A DNA stretch of 64,000 nucleotides from Muribaculum gordoncarteri. GTDB lineage: Bacteria; Bacteroidota; Bacteroidia; Bacteroidales; Muribaculaceae. Shown one piece after another: positions 30,878-36,315 of the stretch (its first letter is position 1; every line of letters starts with the position of its first letter). The stretch covers positions 2,356,001 to 2,420,000 of the forward strand of contig NZ_CP039393.1 of the NCBI RefSeq assembly GCF_004803695.1. The letters run 5' to 3'. The position numbers and the translations under genes were made by a program. The notes below the pieces were generated by a model. The model was given only the letters and a program-made list of their open reading frames with translations. It searched no databases and had not been told where the DNA came from.

Positions 30878-32401
30878 ATGCAAGAGAAAATCATCATTCT
30901 TGACTTCGGCAGTCAGACGACACAGCTAATAGGCCGTCGAGTGCGCGAACTCAACACCTATTGCGAAATTGTGCCCTACAACAAGTTTCCGCATGACGAT
31001 CCGTCGGTAATAGGCGTCATTCTTTCGGGTAGCCCGTTCTCCGTTTATGACGAAAAAGCCTTCAAGGTCGACCTGAGCAACATCCGCGGCAAATATCCCA
31101 TTTTGGGCATCTGCTACGGCGCTCAATTCATGTCCTACACCAACGGCGGAAAGGTAGAGCCGGCAGGCACTCGTGAATATGGCCGCGCCCACCTTGAAAA
31201 GTTTGATCACGAGAATCCCCTGCTCCACGGGCTACGTGACAACTCACAGGTGTGGATGAGTCATGGCGACACGATTACCGCCATCCCCGACAATTTCAAA
31301 ATCATAGCATCGACCGACAAAGTAGCCGTTGCAGCCTATCAGGCTGAAGGCGAGAAGCTATGGGGAGTACAGTTCCACCCCGAAGTATATCACACCGAGG
31401 ACGGAACCCAGCTGCTCAAGAACTTCGTAGTCGATATATGCGGCAGCCGTCAGGACTGGAGCGCAGCATCATTCATCGAAAGCACTGTGGCCGAACTCAA
31501 AAAGCAACTCGGCGACGACAAGGTTGTGCTGGGACTTAGCGGCGGTGTCGACTCATCGGTAGCGGCAGTGTTGCTCAACAAGGCCATCGGCAAAAATCTC
31601 ACCTGCATATTTGTCGATCACGGAATGTTGCGCAAAAACGAGTTCAAGAATGTGCTTCACGACTATGAATGTCTTGGACTGAATGTCATAGGAGTTGACG
31701 CAAGCAAGAAATTCTTCAGCGAACTTGCAGGCGTTACCGAGCCCGAGCGCAAACGCAAAATCATAGGAAAAGGCTTCATCGATGTATTTGACGAAGAGGC
31801 CCACAAGATAAAGGATGTAAAGTGGCTTGCCCAGGGAACCATCTATCCCGACTGCATCGAGTCGCTCTCCATAACAGGAACCACAATCAAGAGCCACCAC
31901 AATGTGGGCGGACTCCCCGAAAAGATGAACCTCAAGCTTTGCGAGCCGCTTCGCCTCCTCTTCAAGGACGAAGTACGCGCCGTAGGACGCGAGCTCGGAA
32001 TGCCGGAGCATCTCATCAAGCGTCATCCCTTCCCCGGCCCCGGACTTGCAGTGCGCATACTCGGTGACATAACTCCCGAAAAGGTGCGCATACTTCAAGA
32101 TGCCGACGACATATTCATCCAGGGACTTCGTGACTGGGACCTCTATGACAAAGTATGGCAAGCCGGAGTGATACTGCTTCCCGTGCAGAGCGTAGGCGTA
32201 ATGGGCGACGAGCGCACCTATGAACGCGCCGTAGCACTTCGCGCAGTCACCTCAACCGATGCCATGACCGCCGACTGGGCCCACCTGCCCTACGACTTCA
32301 TGGCGAAAGTGAGCAACGACATCATCAACAAAGTGAAAGGCGTAAACCGAGTTTGCTACGACATCTCCTCCAAGCCACCGGCAACAATCGAGTGGGAGTA
32401 A
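30878..32401 (+). CDS. guaA: GMP synthase (glutamine-hydrolysing)
   Basis: This 507-residue enzyme converts XMP to GMP. The class I glutamine amidotransferase domain is at residues 1-190 with Cys79 ([10 protein letters not shown]), and [11 protein letters not shown] supplies the catalytic His and Glu. The ATP-pyrophosphatase domain follows with the PP-loop [13 protein letters not shown]. The C-terminal dimerisation domain ends in the conserved [10 protein letters not shown]. The gene is intact. Its last 18 codons are echoed by two degraded copies 2.2 and 2.7 kb downstream, so this 3' end appears to serve as an insertion site. Confidence 0.97.
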
Positions 32402-32439
32402 ACTCGAATTTTTCGTCACAAACGCAAATGGCTATTATA

Positions 32440-32478
32440 CAGTTGCTTATATTCTACATTTAAGAATCTAAGCAACTG
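32440..32478 (+). repeat. Long inverted repeat between guaA and the EcoRI-type genes
   Basis: CAGTTGCTTA-T-ATTCT (32440-32455) pairs with AGAAT-C-TAAGCAACTG (32463-32478). This gives 15 base pairs with a single T-C mismatch and a 7-base loop. The heptamer GCTATTA lies just outside at 32431, overlaps the right end at 32478, and recurs inverted near 32511. No T-run follows, so it is a poor terminator. A regulatory element or an island end is possible. Confidence 0.6.
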
Positions 32479-32524
32479 CTATTAATCTAAATGCATAATA
32501 AAAAATTTCTAATAGCATACTGTA

Positions 32525-32554
32525 ATTGCACCCCACATTTTTTTCGTATTTTTG
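32525..32554 (+). promoter_or_regulatory. Promoter of the EcoRI-type operon
   Basis: TATTTTTG (32547-32554) with ATTG (32525-32528) 18 bases upstream. The R-gene ATG at 32573 is 18 bases further on. A Bacteroidetes-style promoter here means the foreign operon should be readable by the host. Confidence 0.6.
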
Positions 32555-32572
32555 CATTATAGACTAAAAAAT

Positions 32573-33406
32573 ATGGCAAAAAAGAACCAATCTAAAAGAT
32601 TAACCCAACAACATAAAACCACTCACGGTGTAGTGGGTATATTTGGTGAAGGAGCAAAATTGCACGACATGACAGTTGGGCAGGTATCACATATGGTTCT
32701 AACTCAACTTAAAACTGATTTTCCTACATTATCGTTTAGATATAGAAATAGTATTCGCAAGGAAGAAATTAATTTGGCACTACAAAAAGTTGACAAAGAA
32801 TTGGGTCAAACATTATTTGTTCCAAATTCCAGTATTATTCCAGATGGCGGTATAATAGAAGTCAAAGATGATTATGACGAATGGCGCGTAATCTTGGTAT
32901 CAGAAGCTAAACATCAAGGGAAAGATATAGAAAATATATTGGCAGGTAAATTAGTTGGCAAGAATAATGACCAAGATTTAATGGCGGCCGGAAATGCTAT
33001 TGAGAGATCTCACAAAAACATCTCAGAGATAGCAAATTTTATGTTAGGTGAATCACACTTTCCCTATGTCCTTTTTCTGGAGGGCTCCAACTTTTTGACG
33101 GAAACAATTAGAATTACCCGTCCTGACGGGCGTATGGTTGTTCTTGAGTATAATTCTGGAATGCTTAATAGATTAGACCGACTAACTGCTGCAAATTATG
33201 GATTGCCTATAAATACAAATCTATGTAAAAATAGGTTTGTTCACCATAAAGATAGAACAATAATGATCCAAGCTGCATCCATTTACACCCAAGGTGACGG
33301 AGGGCATTGGGCAACTGAGCAGATGTTCTATATCATGTTAGAAATTGCAAGAACATCTATCCAAGTTCTTTACAGCGATTTATTTTGTCAGGTTCAAAAC
33401 AAATAA
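32573..33406 (+). CDS. EcoRI-type type II restriction endonuclease
   Basis: This 277-residue protein has the same length as E. coli EcoRI. By recall it aligns with EcoRI without gaps in the regions compared, sharing long identical blocks such as MAAGNAIERSHKNISEIANF and LNRLDRLTAANYG. The PD-(D/E)xK catalytic residues fall at EcoRI numbering: Asp91 (IPDGG), Glu111 and Lys113 (SEAKHQG). The recognition residues Asn141, Glu144, Arg145, Arg200 and Arg203 are all present, so cleavage of GAATTC is predicted. The start MAKKNQSKRL is taken after the promoter. The gene is clearly more AT-rich than the core genes around it, which suggests transfer. The cognate methylase follows after 12 bases. Confidence 0.95.
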   Translation: MAKKNQSKRLTQQHKTTHGVVGIFGEGAKLHDMTVGQVSHMVLTQLKTDFPTLSFRYRNSIRKEEINLALQKVDKELGQTLFVPNSSIIPDGGIIEVKDDYDEWRVILVSEAKHQGKDIENILAGKLVGKNNDQDLMAAGNAIERSHKNISEIANFMLGESHFPYVLFLEGSNFLTETIRITRPDGRMVVLEYNSGMLNRLDRLTAANYGLPINTNLCKNRFVHHKDRTIMIQAASIYTQGDGGHWATEQMFYIMLEIARTSIQVLYSDLFCQVQNK

Positions 33407-33418
33407 AGTTACTTTTTT

Positions 33419-34423
33419 ATGGCAAGAAAAGCGACTAATACGATTTTACATAAAGCAAAGAGCTCAAAGAGTGATGAGTTCTACACATTGCGTGAAGATA
33501 TTGAGCGAGAACTGACATTTTACAAAGATTCCTTTCACGGAAAAACTGTATATTGCAACTGTGATAATCCAAAGGAAAGTAATTTCTTCAAATACTTCTT
33601 TGAGAATTTTAAGCTCATCGGTTTAAAAAAGCTTATTGCATCATACTTTGTTCCTAATACCCAAGATTTATTTAACGAATCAGAGCCTAAGCATGGCAGT
33701 TATATATCGGTAACTTTAGACGACCTCGACACCAATATATCAGACTTGCCATGCAAACCTCTCAAAGGGAATGGTGATTTCAGAAGTTATGAATGTACTT
33801 CATTATTGAAGCAATCTGACATAATCGTAACAAATCCACCATTTTCTCTTTTTAGGGAACATATTTCACAAATTGTTCGATATAGAAAACAATTTCTTGT
33901 TATTGGCAACATAAATGCAATTACATATCAAGAGGTATTTAATCTGATACAATCAAACAGAGCATGGTTGGGAATACATCTTGGGAGGGGAATCTCAGGG
34001 TTTAAAGTTCCCGATCATTATGAAATGTATGGAACTGAAACACATATATCAAGTAACGGTGATCGAATTATTTCACCAAACAATTGCTTATGGCTCACAA
34101 ATATTGATATTCAATCCAGACATGATCTTCTACCGCTGACAAAAATATACCGTGGAAATGAGGATTTATACCCTAAATATGATAATTACGATGGCATTAA
34201 TGTCAACAGAACTCAAGATATACCAATGGACTATGAAGGTGCCATAGGTGTGCCTATAACTTTTCTACACAAATATAATCCATCACAATTTGAGATTATT
34301 CAGTTCAGAAAAGGCAATGATGGTAAAGATCTTTCAATCAACGGTAAATGTCCTTACTTTCGTATCCTTATAAAAAACAAGGAGCCTATCAAGGCAACTT
34401 ATCAAAGTTCTTTGTTTGCTTAA
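33419..34423 (+). CDS. EcoRI-type adenine-specific DNA methyltransferase
   Basis: This 334-residue N6-adenine methyltransferase closely resembles M.EcoRI by recall. Shared features are the N-terminal ARKATNTILHKAKSSKSDEF, the SAM-binding region YCNCDNPKESNFFKYF and catalytic motif IV NPPF at residues 139-142. WLGIHLGRG and the C-terminal INGKCPYFRILIKNK also match. It should protect GAATTC by methylating the second A. It has about eight extra C-terminal residues compared with the 326 I recall for M.EcoRI. It lies 12 bases after the endonuclease gene and appears intact. Confidence 0.95.
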   Translation: MARKATNTILHKAKSSKSDEFYTLREDIERELTFYKDSFHGKTVYCNCDNPKESNFFKYFFENFKLIGLKKLIASYFVPNTQDLFNESEPKHGSYISVTLDDLDTNISDLPCKPLKGNGDFRSYECTSLLKQSDIIVTNPPFSLFREHISQIVRYRKQFLVIGNINAITYQEVFNLIQSNRAWLGIHLGRGISGFKVPDHYEMYGTETHISSNGDRIISPNNCLWLTNIDIQSRHDLLPLTKIYRGNEDLYPKYDNYDGINVNRTQDIPMDYEGAIGVPITFLHKYNPSQFEIIQFRKGNDGKDLSINGKCPYFRILIKNKEPIKATYQSSLFA

Positions 34424-34554
34424 TTATTTGCAGTAGAAGAAACCTGCTATTTTCAGATTATTTCATTTGAATTAGCTGGAATATAGCTAATCTACAGAGG
34501 GTTAACCTCAACCAGATTTTCGTAATCGTGCCAAAATGCGCCCTGACAATGATA
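34424..34554. other. AT-rich intergenic stretch after the methyltransferase gene
   Basis: No gene is supported. It contains two small hairpins: GCAG/CTGC at 34430-34447 followed by TATTTTC, a weak terminator candidate, and ATTAGCT/AGCTAAT at 34471-34491. From 34471 an open frame without a start codon runs into the guaA-like tail described next. Confidence 0.4.
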
Positions 34555-34608
34555 AAACTAACTTATAATGCTGATAATCAATCCTTCTGCATTATCGAGT
34601 TGGAGTAA
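34555..34608 (+). repeat. Degraded copy A of the guaA 3' end (18 codons)
   Basis: These codons read KLTYNADNQSFCIIELE-stop and align without gaps to the guaA ending [17 protein letters not shown]-stop. The last 17 bases around the stop, ATCGAGTnGGAGTAAAC, differ from guaA at one position. The copy lies between the EcoRI-type pair and the HigA-like gene, as expected for an attachment-site duplication. Confidence 0.6.
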
Positions 34609-34668
34609 ACCAACGCAACGCAAACGCCATAAAATCATAAAAAACAGCTGAACATTTACTCTATAATA

Positions 34669-34700
34669 TTTGTCTGATTATTACTAATTAGTTATATTTG
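34669..34700 (+). promoter_or_regulatory. Promoter and possible operator of the HigA-like gene
   Basis: TTTG (34669-34672), 20 bases, TATATTTG (34693-34700). The spacer contains the perfect palindrome ACTAATTAGT (34683-34692), well placed for autorepression. The first ATG is only 4 bases past the -7 box, so the mRNA may be leaderless. Confidence 0.65.
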
Positions 34701-34704
34701 CGAC

Positions 34705-35010
34705 ATGAAATTAGCCACGCTCCCTACTGCAAATAAGATGCTCGATGAAAAATACGGCGAATTGGGTTCTCTTTCGCGAGAACAGTTCAACGAGGAATCT
34801 ATCGCGTGGTTCTATGGCAATATGATTCGTGAACGCCGTAAAGAATTGAAAATGACCCAGAAGCAGATAGCTGACAAAATTGACCGTGAGCAAAGTTATA
34901 TCGCACGAGTAGAACAAGGCAAAACCGACATACAATTATCGAGTTTCTTTCGCATAGCTGCCGTGCTTGGTATCCAATTTATCCCAACGTTTGTTTCGGT
35001 TTTAAAATAA
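34705..35010 (+). CDS. XRE-family regulator, HigA-like orphan antitoxin
   Basis: This 101-residue protein has a Cro/C1-type helix-turn-helix at about residues 45-95 (IRERRKELKMTQKQIADKIDREQSYIARVEQGKTDIQLSSFFRIAAVLG). The N-terminal segment LDEKYGELGSLSREQFNEES resembles HigA antitoxins of RelE/HigB systems. No toxin gene lies on either side, so it is an orphan. Because the ATG at 34705 is almost on top of the promoter, the Met at 34738 is a realistic alternative start (90 residues). Copies of the guaA tail lie before and after it. Confidence 0.85.
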   Translation: MKLATLPTANKMLDEKYGELGSLSREQFNEESIAWFYGNMIRERRKELKMTQKQIADKIDREQSYIARVEQGKTDIQLSSFFRIAAVLGIQFIPTFVSVLK

Positions 35011-35047
35011 ACAAAGATTCGATCAAAACAGCACCCCGTCAATGACG

Positions 35048-35101
35048 AGGATAACATATAATGCTGAGCATCAACACATCCGCATTATAGAGTGGGAGTA
35101 G
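35048..35101 (+). repeat. Degraded copy B of the guaA 3' end (18 codons)
   Basis: These codons read RITYNAEHQHIRIIEWE-stop and align gap-free with the guaA tail [17 protein letters not shown]-stop. GAGTGGGAGTA is identical to guaA. Copy B matches copy A at 38 of the 47 bases from 35054 to 35100. It separates the HigA-like gene from the Hip module. Confidence 0.65.
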
Positions 35102-35130
35102 CTTTGTTTCCGTCAGACGACAAACTTATC

Positions 35131-35163
35131 ATAAGCCCCGGCTATGCCGAGGCTTATTTTTTT
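35131..35163 (+). terminator. Terminator behind guaA copy B
   Basis: ATAAGCC-C-CGGC (35131-35142) pairs with GCCG-A-GGCTTAT (35146-35157) around a TAT loop and runs into TTTTTTT. It begins 29 bases after the copy B stop codon. It may be the original guaA terminator displaced by the insertions. It also ends the HigA-like transcript. Confidence 0.85.
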
Positions 35164-35185
35164 ATCTCGCAGAGGACTCAACAAC

Positions 35186-35265
35186 AAAATCACAACATAT
35201 TGTGATTTTAGCTCTATTTATCAAATATTTTTTCGTATATTTGCAAAAACCACAATATATTGTGA
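35186..35265 (+). promoter_or_regulatory. Paired HipB operators flanking the hip promoter
   Basis: CACAACATATTGTGA (35191-35205, within a palindrome with 10-bp arms at 35186-35209) and CACAATATATTGTGA (35251-35265) differ at one base. They start exactly 60 bases apart, so they should face the same side of the helix. The -7 box TATATTTG (35236-35243) lies between them. The second operator ends two bases before the hipB ATG. Confidence 0.8.
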
Positions 35266-35267
35266 AA

Positions 35268-35474
35268 ATGGAATCCATAGGAGAACGAATAAAACAACGC
35301 CGCAAAATGCTCAACATAACCCAAGAGCAGCTTGCCGACATTGCGGAAGTAGGCATAAACACCTTGACGAAAATAGAACGTGACGAGGGAAATCCGACCT
35401 TGAAAGTCCTGCTAAAAGTACTTGACACCCTCGGCCTTGAAATAAAAATAACCATTAAAACTATGAATCAATAA
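35268..35474 (+). CDS. hipB: HipB-like helix-turn-helix antitoxin
   Basis: This 68-residue XRE-family DNA-binding protein has IGERIKQRRKMLNITQEQLADIAEVGINTLTKIERDEGNPTL as its helix-turn-helix and a short C-terminal strand (LEIKITIK) suited to dimerisation. The ATG at 35268 follows the second operator. A longer frame would begin inside the promoter. The stop codon overlaps the next start (TAATG). By context it is the repressor of a HipBST-type module. Confidence 0.88.
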   Translation: MESIGERIKQRRKMLNITQEQLADIAEVGINTLTKIERDEGNPTLKVLLKVLDTLGLEIKITIKTMNQ

Positions 35475-35797
35475 TGAGAATGGCAAACGTATATATAAAC
35501 AATGTATTGGCCGGAGTAATCGTTGAAAATAATCGCAATGATTACATATTCCGGTATGATAACACATACTATCAAAACCGTTCAAATCCACCGGTAAGCC
35601 TGACGCTTCCGCTTACTCGGCAAGAGCATCGTTCCACTCACCTGTTTCCGTTCTTCTCCAACATGTTATCGGAAGGAAGCAATCGTCGCATTCAGTCCCG
35701 ATTCCTTAAAATTGACGAAAACGATAATTTCGGACTATTGTTGGCAACTGCACAATACGACACTCCGGGAGCCATTACCATAAAGCCCATTAAATGA
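35474..35797 (+). CDS. HipS-like protein (HipA N-terminal subdomain)
   Basis: This 107-residue protein corresponds to the N-terminal subdomain of HipA kinases, encoded separately as in HipBST systems. Typical segments are ANVYINNVLAGVIVENNRNDYIFRYD, PPVSLTLPLTRQEHRSTHLFPFFSNMLSEG and NDNFGLLLATAQYDTPGAITIKPI. It is coupled to hipB by TAATG and to the kinase remnant by ATGA. The frame is intact. In HipBST systems this protein can act as the antitoxin. Confidence 0.85.
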   Translation: MRMANVYINNVLAGVIVENNRNDYIFRYDNTYYQNRSNPPVSLTLPLTRQEHRSTHLFPFFSNMLSEGSNRRIQSRFLKIDENDNFGLLLATAQYDTPGAITIKPIK

Positions 35798-36031
35798 TGG
35801 AAATAAATCACTGCCCCTCACTTCTCATTCCGGGTTATTCAACCTATTCTCAAACAGCGTTGAAAAGGCTCACATCAGGACTTCCGGTAAGCCACGTGCT
35901 CCCCTATACTTCTCTTGCATCAAATGAAGTAATAACTAAATGCCTCGTTCCTGTCGGATGAGCTAAAACGCACATATCGACTGATATATCGCACACGATT
36001 GAAAAGTTACCTCCAGGCGGGCATTGATTGA
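35794..36031 (+). pseudogene. Remnant of HipT/HipA kinase with large internal deletion
   Basis: The first frame, 55 codons from 35794, has the start of a HipA-type kinase (CPSLLIPGYSTYSQTALKRL, VSHVLPYTS) and stops at 35961. From about 35945, in another frame, the sequence resembles a HipA C-terminus (SFLSDELKRTYRLIYRTRLK) and ends at TGA 36029-36031. The whole catalytic core is missing, about 200 or more residues by comparison with complete family members. The start overlaps the HipS-like stop, so this was the third gene of a hipB-hipS-hipT operon. Confidence 0.85.
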
Positions 36032-36262
36032 GCGGAAATATTATGGTTCATTAAGAATTGACTCCATGAAAATAAAGTTTAAGCATTGCCGGCGGAAGTT
36101 ACCTTCGCCTCGGCCACTCGTTGGCGATTTTCCTCATCTCTTTCGGTCACGATGGAACCCCATCGCTCCCTCAATAGCTAAAGAAAATCACTTAACAATT
36201 GACCGCCCTGCCATTAACATTTATTGTCGTACCGGCTCTATAGTGTGATTGACTTTTTTTCG
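36032..36262. other. Intergenic tail of the accessory island
   Basis: No convincing gene. An open frame with a TTG start (36024-36248) has no recognisable domain and overlaps the hip remnant. A GC-rich imperfect hairpin lies at 36088-36114. Composition shifts back towards the chromosomal value here, so the island's right boundary is probably within this stretch. Confidence 0.4.
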
Positions 36263-36270
36263 TAACTTTG
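36263..36270 (+). promoter_or_regulatory. -7 box before the DUF4494 gene
   Basis: TAACTTTG, 45 bases before the ATG at 36316. No clear -33 element. Confidence 0.5.
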
Positions 36271-36315
36271 TATTACAATTACAATTTCATTTAATAATTA
36301 AACTGAACAGAAAAA

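Follow-up and report, generated by a model that had tools for sequence, protein, structure and literature searches.

An EcoRI-type restriction-modification pair in a compact, integrase-less module with att-type ends behind guaA of Muribaculum gordoncarteri

In a 64,000-nucleotide stretch of the genome of Muribaculum gordoncarteri (hereafter, the window; C1:2356001-2420000), we found a complete EcoRI-type restriction-modification (R-M) pair located at the 3' end of guaA, in a module of about 2.2 kb (32402-34608) that has definite boundaries and has spread horizontally between genomes. The module is probably an integrase-less, att-bounded R-M cassette, similar to a cis-mobilizable element (CIME), which entered by site-specific recombination supplied in trans; we put the probability of this reading at roughly 0.7. 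What is new is where the pair sits: an att-bounded R-M module that lacks an integrase occupies a guaA socket common to other R-M types, integrase elements and a prophage. The features of the region are collected in Table 1.

Table 1. Features at the guaA end of the window (positions in window numbering).
Feature	Position	Strand	Basis
guaA, GMP synthase, 507 aa; 3' end is the insertion site	30878..32401	+	
Left core, final 15 bases of guaA, ATCGAGTGGGAGTAA	32387..32401	+	
Left-end hairpin, 16-nt arms 94% complementary, begins 54 nt from the core start	32440..32478	+	
Candidate arm-type box AATTGCACCCC (family form AATTGTACCC)	32524..32534	+	by eye
Candidate Bacteroidetes -7 promoter box TATTTTTG, 18 nt upstream of R	32547..32554	+	sequence
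EcoRI-type restriction endonuclease (R), 277 aa	32573..33406	+	Pfam, EcoRI structure match, residue check
EcoRI-type adenine methyltransferase (M), 334 aa, NPPF at 139	33419..34423	+	Pfam, residue check
Right end of attR type, homologous to those of integrase-bearing guaA elements	34487..34608	+	92.1 bits, window sequence itself in model
Right core, guaA-end copy ATCGAGTTGGAGTAA, 1 mismatch	34594..34608	+	repeat search
Second inserted module, 493 bp, one HTH gene and own right end	34609..35101	+	
HTH_3 protein, 101 aa, antitoxin- or C-protein-like	34705..35010	+	
Second right end; core 35087-35101, 2 mismatches	34980..35100	+	82.1 bits, also in model
Terminator-like hairpin and T run directly past the last core	35131..35157	+	strict terminator finder

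By sequence, R and M belong to the EcoRI family. The two ORFs are adjacent and uninterrupted (R starts with the ATG at 32573), R matched the Pfam EcoRI profile over positions 2-257 of 257 (476 bits, E 2.1e-143) and M matched EcoRI_methylase (411 bits, E 6.9e-123), which agrees with the complete pair announced in the original prediction. EcoRI crystal structures aligned with residues 1-276 of R (2oxv, E 9.8e-130). As had also been claimed, R has the 277-residue length of EcoRI and all eight residues D91, E111, K113, N141, E144, R145, R200 and R203 are found at EcoRI numbering; we take the first three to be catalytic and the remaining five to serve recognition. Since these eight residues are in place, the predicted specificity is very likely GAATTC, and the pair is an EcoRI isoschizomer by every sequence test made. 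The NPPF motif of the methylase was confirmed to start at residue 139. Plasmid-borne EcoRI proteins of E. coli, Klebsiella and Raoultella are 71-73% identical to R (best 72.6%) and the corresponding methylases 63-65% identical to M (best 64.6%); two of the properties on which the prediction had hinged, an identity to EcoRI that is not low and intact catalytic residues, are both present. The reported AT-richness was likewise seen, with a GC content of 36% in R, 34% in M and 34% in the module, versus 52% in the window outside 32402-36300. The EcoRI-family gene is present as a single copy, on contig C1 of the 3.43-Mb, three-contig genome.

The genome contains 663 GAATTC sites (193 per Mb, the fourth lowest of 14 in the genus), so that methylation would be required if R is active. 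We compared GAATTC frequency in 40 hand-chosen genomes (nine carriers of an EcoRI gene, 13 congeners and 18 genomes from the carriers' genera). The median was 143 per Mb in the nine carriers versus 265 in the 31 others (p 0.005, with a statistic that ignores kinship); for the control word CTTAAG, the reversed site, the values were 107 and 102 per Mb (p 0.67). In four of the nine carriers, the EcoRI gene lies away from guaA. The modest GAATTC deficit of carriers is compatible with past or present restriction and is a weak hint at the putative active barrier of the original prediction.

The module is delimited by copies of the end of guaA. The final 15 bases of the gene recur with one mismatch after M and with two mismatches further downstream (Table 1), both distal copies terminate 82-nt repeats, and the R-M pair fills the DNA between guaA and the first copy. 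R and M are the only large ORFs there, the listed ORFs of 56 and 52 aa overlapping them, and neither the ORF list nor Pfam analysis of R and M revealed an integrase or transfer gene within 32402-34608. The original prediction had placed the pair behind guaA in the core chromosome; the position was correct, but the pair is held by an inserted module and is not part of the core. The core copy after M is also present in L022 and L023, two EcoRI loci from other genomes, which are homologous to each other from guaA through R and M up to the right core, where the homology stops. The three EcoRI modules with both ends (window, L022 and L023) measure 2207, 2202 and 2212 bp, respectively. With R1, a model built from sequence alone on six right ends, of which the window supplied two, the right end was not recognised in L018, L019, L020 and L021, i.e., in four of seven EcoRI modules. 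The direct repeats kept at the module ends are of attL/attR type, and we infer their role as att sites from sequence.

The left ends of the modules share a hairpin, which starts 45-55 nt from the core start in ten cassette left ends (L018 counted twice) and in L111, and at 61 nt in the left ends of both integrase elements described below. The hairpin arms differ in sequence; in 12 of 13 sequences none of 100 simple shuffles reached the observed arm score, and for one integrase element (B) 1 of 100 did. Boxes of the TTGTACCC type are present in other left and right ends. The consensus of the Bacteroidetes -7 promoter box is TAnnTTTG, and a candidate of this kind precedes R. In L018 (5246-5836) we noted two guaA cores 576 bp apart, with no gene noted between them and the EcoRI module next to them, an instance of tandem accretion. 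We also noticed by eye that the right ends in the window, L023, L131, L132 and others contain an open frame of about 20 codons that ends like the GuaA C-terminus (IEWE-stop or near); the open frame in the right end of L022 is without ATG. This may reflect coding mimicry or mere conservation of the DNA site.

A second inserted module, with its own right end, follows the right core directly. Its HTH gene was considered as a C-protein regulator of the R-M pair, and this control is unsupported because the gene is located past the right core, in a separate module. The hairpin immediately beyond the last core was reported by the strict terminator finder and is absent from the list of a second, standard scan. 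The strict finder gave a positive result for 4 of the 11 right ends and for 27 of 500 random stretches; among 32 guaA ends that have no module-type left end (and may include other element types), it was positive for 18. The hairpin is likely guaA's own terminator, which would have been displaced by insertion between the terminator and the stop codon. Further downstream, at 35202-35961, there are ORFs for a hipB-like HTH protein (90 aa), a HipA N-terminal-domain protein (107 aa) and a 55-aa product resembling the start of the HipA kinase; the latter had no Pfam match and its likeness to HipA was judged by eye. The region resembles a hipB-hipS-hipT toxin-antitoxin module with a truncated kinase. 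A 20-nt direct repeat AAAATCACAACATATTGTGA at the start of the hipB-like ORF (35186-35265; copies 90% identical, 60 nt apart) is a candidate operator of the hipB-like protein.

The R-M pair itself adds a member to a known group. In assembled genome contigs we found 101 relatives of R and kept 80 loci, 45 of which are from Bacteroidota by record title; the rest are from Patescibacteria, Clostridia, one cyanobacterium, Helicobacter and others. Of 297 genomes sampled from the window's family, 9 carry an EcoRI gene, and none was found in the 13 other congeners, 12 of which gave a guaA match (93-95% identical in seven, 89-92% in five). EcoRI-type systems are not rare in Bacteroidota, and the notion that such a pair is unusual in this phylum had to be dropped. 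Among IMG/VR viral contigs, R gave two relatives, 77-78% identical to it (L202 and L203).

The guaA gene adjoins R in 6 of the 80 kept loci (L018-L023), the same six that rank nearest to the window among those 80 (R 85-89% identical); in the DNA around the other 74 loci, many pieces of which are short, no guaA match was found. L019, L020, L022 and L023 correspond to family genomes G209, G101, G214 and G170, and thus five of the nine carriers in the family, window included, have the gene at guaA; in the other four (G010, G035, G056 and G165) there was no guaA within the piece examined. In the tree of R proteins (75 rows: the window and the 74 of the 80 loci with a nearly complete unbroken match; L023, whose R has two in-frame stops, was left out), the six guaA-linked proteins form one clade with support of 100/99. 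In the tree of R and M together, built for the window and 15 chosen loci of the 80 (L033, which is without M, was dropped), all seven guaA-linked rows, L023 included, form one group (100/100). R is open in six of the seven guaA-linked loci (broken in L023) and M in all seven, which fits selection for function.

The module is horizontally spread, as the original prediction had supposed. Between L018 and the window, R is 89% and M 82% identical although GuaA is only 70% identical, and the path length between the two is 0.20 in the R+M tree versus 1.25 in the GuaA tree. The R+M tree pairs L022 and L023 as sisters (100/99), and the GuaA tree weakly joins L022 with L019 (80/84); forcing L022 together with L019 in the R+M tree was rejected (p 2e-56), joining L019, L022 and L023 was not (p 0.07), and joining L018 with L021 was only marginally rejected (p 0.046). 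This tree conflict, partly marginal, argues against vertical inheritance with losses only. GuaA is the sole host gene compared, and it could itself have been exchanged. At fourfold sites, L022 and L023 are 68% identical in M versus 37% in guaA. All other pairs are near saturation at these sites, so that most modules would be old residents; fourfold-site divergence was abandoned as a clock for the same reason.

The guaA end also receives R-M genes of other types. Behind guaA and between the same kinds of ends, G174 carries an N6/N4 methylase with a type II REase found by PADLOC, in a module of 2459 bp; the module in G227, of 2401 bp, has a C5 methylase and a HindVP-type REase. Neither genome contributed to model R1, which matched them with E values of 2.3e-25 and 1.2e-22, respectively. 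Relatives of both types were found at guaA, in G120 for the G174 type (REase 88% identical) and in G024 for the G227 type (91%); overall, guaA was in the examined piece for two of four genomes with G174-type R-M and two of ten with HindVP. The left end in G120 is of a different type, and no right end was recognised there, only 625 bp of contig extending beyond R. In G024, which is also without a recognised right end, the left end is by eye of the integrase-element type, with R-M in the place of the integrase. Relic left ends without the EcoRI pair are present in L111, G086 and G126. Among the congeners (L111-L122) the DNA downstream of guaA differs, only pairs such as L111/L113, L116/L117 and L119/L120 being alike by eye, so the site is variable. 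When the DNA after the right ends was compared with 54 pieces of DNA from downstream of guaA (taken from congeners and from genera g7, g22 and g30, with some genomes present twice and the carriers' own included), no empty-site sister genome was found.

Integrase-bearing elements occupy the same position. A two-box pattern of the TTGTACCC type was found in 2 of 149 family genomes, at two sites in each, with 0 matches for the reversed control, and both box pairs bound elements of 8.2 and 8.9 kb (elements A and B) directly behind guaA. Both elements have a tyrosine integrase gene immediately after guaA. The integrase of element A (in G014) matched Phage_integrase, Arm-DNA-bind_5 and Phage_int_SAM_5; further inside, one protein matched ParB weakly (E 1.1e-05) and another, of 195 aa, is of Phage_integrase type, and the gene content of element B is similar by eye. 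The right end in the window is 75% and 73% identical to those of A and B, compared with a mean of 52% and a maximum of 57% in shuffles. Model R1 matched 11 of 294 family genomes. Of these, 10 have one or more matches, either to the right end or to the left-end boxes, behind guaA (in G256, behind its apparent last 8 bases at a contig start); G038 had no guaA in the piece examined up to the contig end.

The integrase was detected at E<=1e-40 in 12 of 297 family genomes. All four copies with 65-100% identity (G014, G096, G256 and G171, the last a partial gene) are located directly behind guaA or its last bases, and several of the group with 34-38% identity have a guaA-end-like match nearby with another left-end type. 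The copy in G256 stands at the start of a contig that also carries genes for an amidase, the terminase large subunit and a portal protein, which indicates a prophage. In the genome of the window itself the integrase had no match at this threshold, so no helper was seen there. Searches of viral contigs yielded no integrase among 14 candidate stretches and no exact 21-base box pair; the 15-base right-end piece was present in 35 contigs, and R1 had no match on seven of these (L204-L210). By eye, a second guaA left-end type (...CTCTGAACTATAGC...) was seen in L136, L138, L139, L140, L106, L180 and L242; it lies near integrases 34-38% identical to the one studied in L136, L138, L139 and L140 and occurs with R-M genes in L242. 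The same guaA end thus appears to serve a second family of elements.

We consider mobilisation in trans the likeliest way in. The module would have been inserted at the guaA 3' end through site-specific recombination at the core ATCGAGTGGGARTAA, rebuilding the guaA stop codon, with a recombinase provided in trans by elements that target guaA and have ends of the same kind, either the 8-9-kb integrase elements or related prophages. Once resident, M would methylate GAATTC and R would cut the unmethylated sites, and the pair, if active, could provide defence against phages and plasmids as well as post-segregational retention of the module. The module may also be mobile at present. A serious rival, possible and in our view the strongest, is decay: a larger guaA element with R-M cargo may have lost its integrase and other genes by deletion, leaving a fixed, immobile relic kept for defence. 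This would suit the near saturation of fourfold sites between most modules, the modules in which no right end was recognised, the own genome without an integrase match, the integrase-type left end of G024 with R-M where the integrase would be, and the relic left ends in L111, G086 and G126. However, the nearly equal sizes of the three complete EcoRI modules look as if one compact unit had spread, and not like separate deletions; the modules of L022 and L023 have a recent common ancestor although guaA of their hosts is near saturation, and the same compact layout is found in three unrelated R-M types.

Alternatively, the module could have been moved without any recombinase, by homologous recombination between the guaA genes of related species. 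Islands can move by exchange of flanking core genes, and the long homology on the left side, starting in guaA, would agree with this. Such passive transfer is nevertheless unlikely, since L022 and L023 align no further than the right core and so show no right-flank homology, the GuaA proteins of L018 and the window are 30% different, and the right ends are common to integrase elements. The simplest explanation would be chance, i.e., ordinary R-M genes that happen to lie behind guaA, with the core copies as random matches: the window has four core matches at up to three mismatches where 1.2 are expected in 64 kb, and 4 of 100 shuffles equal that number. We regard it as very improbable, because three core copies follow one another at module ends over 2.7 kb, two of the three being embedded in conserved end sequences about 125 bp long, and the link to guaA recurs across seven EcoRI loci and two further R-M types.

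Mobilisation in trans, if correct for the window, can be extended tentatively to the family, an extension to which we give somewhat less than an even chance. The guaA end in this family of gut Bacteroidales may be a shared socket for interchangeable type II R-M cassettes of 2.2-2.5 kb, which have the left and right ends of guaA integrase elements and no integrase, and which would spread non-autonomously by means of an integrase from guaA phages or from satellite-like elements; the R-M system would then ride on phages and restrict them. Little is known of how small type II R-M systems pass from one chromosome to another when no vehicle is visible. The combination of a defined attachment site, differing R-M modules and candidate helpers with an identified integrase opens this question to direct testing. 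R-M genes would, if mobilisation in trans is true, be passengers of the phages they cut.

The closest known R-M relatives are EcoRI itself and, alongside it, RsrI, LraI and other EcoRI-like systems. The EcoRI system of E. coli and Klebsiella plasmids shares with the window pair the R and M families, the length of R, the key residues and the order of R followed by M in one direction; it differs in that the best identity is only 73% for R and 65% for M, and in that the window pair lies in a chromosomal guaA module and not on a small plasmid. Integron gene cassettes are modules without a recombinase gene of their own, and in this they resemble the window module, in which no integrase was seen and an attC array would be conjectural. 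Unlike attC sites, which are not conserved in sequence, the right ends studied here are conserved over about 125 bp. SCC elements form arrays at one gene end, that of rlmH; the array at a single gene end is a likeness, whereas no ccr genes were seen here. Unlike integron cassettes and SCC, the guaA relatives have a tyrosine integrase with Arm-DNA-bind_5.

REBASE held 526 putative EcoRI-like proteins according to the accessible part of PMC5896346. Defence islands of unclear mobility are discussed in PMC10121019, the available text of which does not mention guaA. Our literature search, mostly at the level of titles and abstracts and covering few subscription journals, found nothing on guaA R-M modules in Bacteroidales. 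In other phyla, IMEs are known to integrate at the guaA 3' end, and type II R-M systems have been noted in IMEs (PMC5704250, in the part available); ATE-1, the IncP island and GIsul2, IMEs described there, use the same gene end as the window module. E. coli phage vB_EcoP_ZX5 also integrates at guaA, and its published att core attgagtgggaatgatt overlaps the core in the window (PMC9782041, as far as accessible). The guaA IMEs and vB_EcoP_ZX5 encode a tyrosine integrase and belong to other phyla, whereas the window module has no such gene. The nearest parallel is the CIME, defined in the accessible text of PMC5704250 as a cis-mobilizable element that has lost its integration and transfer genes and kept attL and attR: the att-type ends are kept, there is no integrase, and accretion at one site is in tandem. 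The difference is that the cargo of the module is R-M alone, and that three unrelated types of R-M have this layout, at a size of 2.2-2.5 kb.
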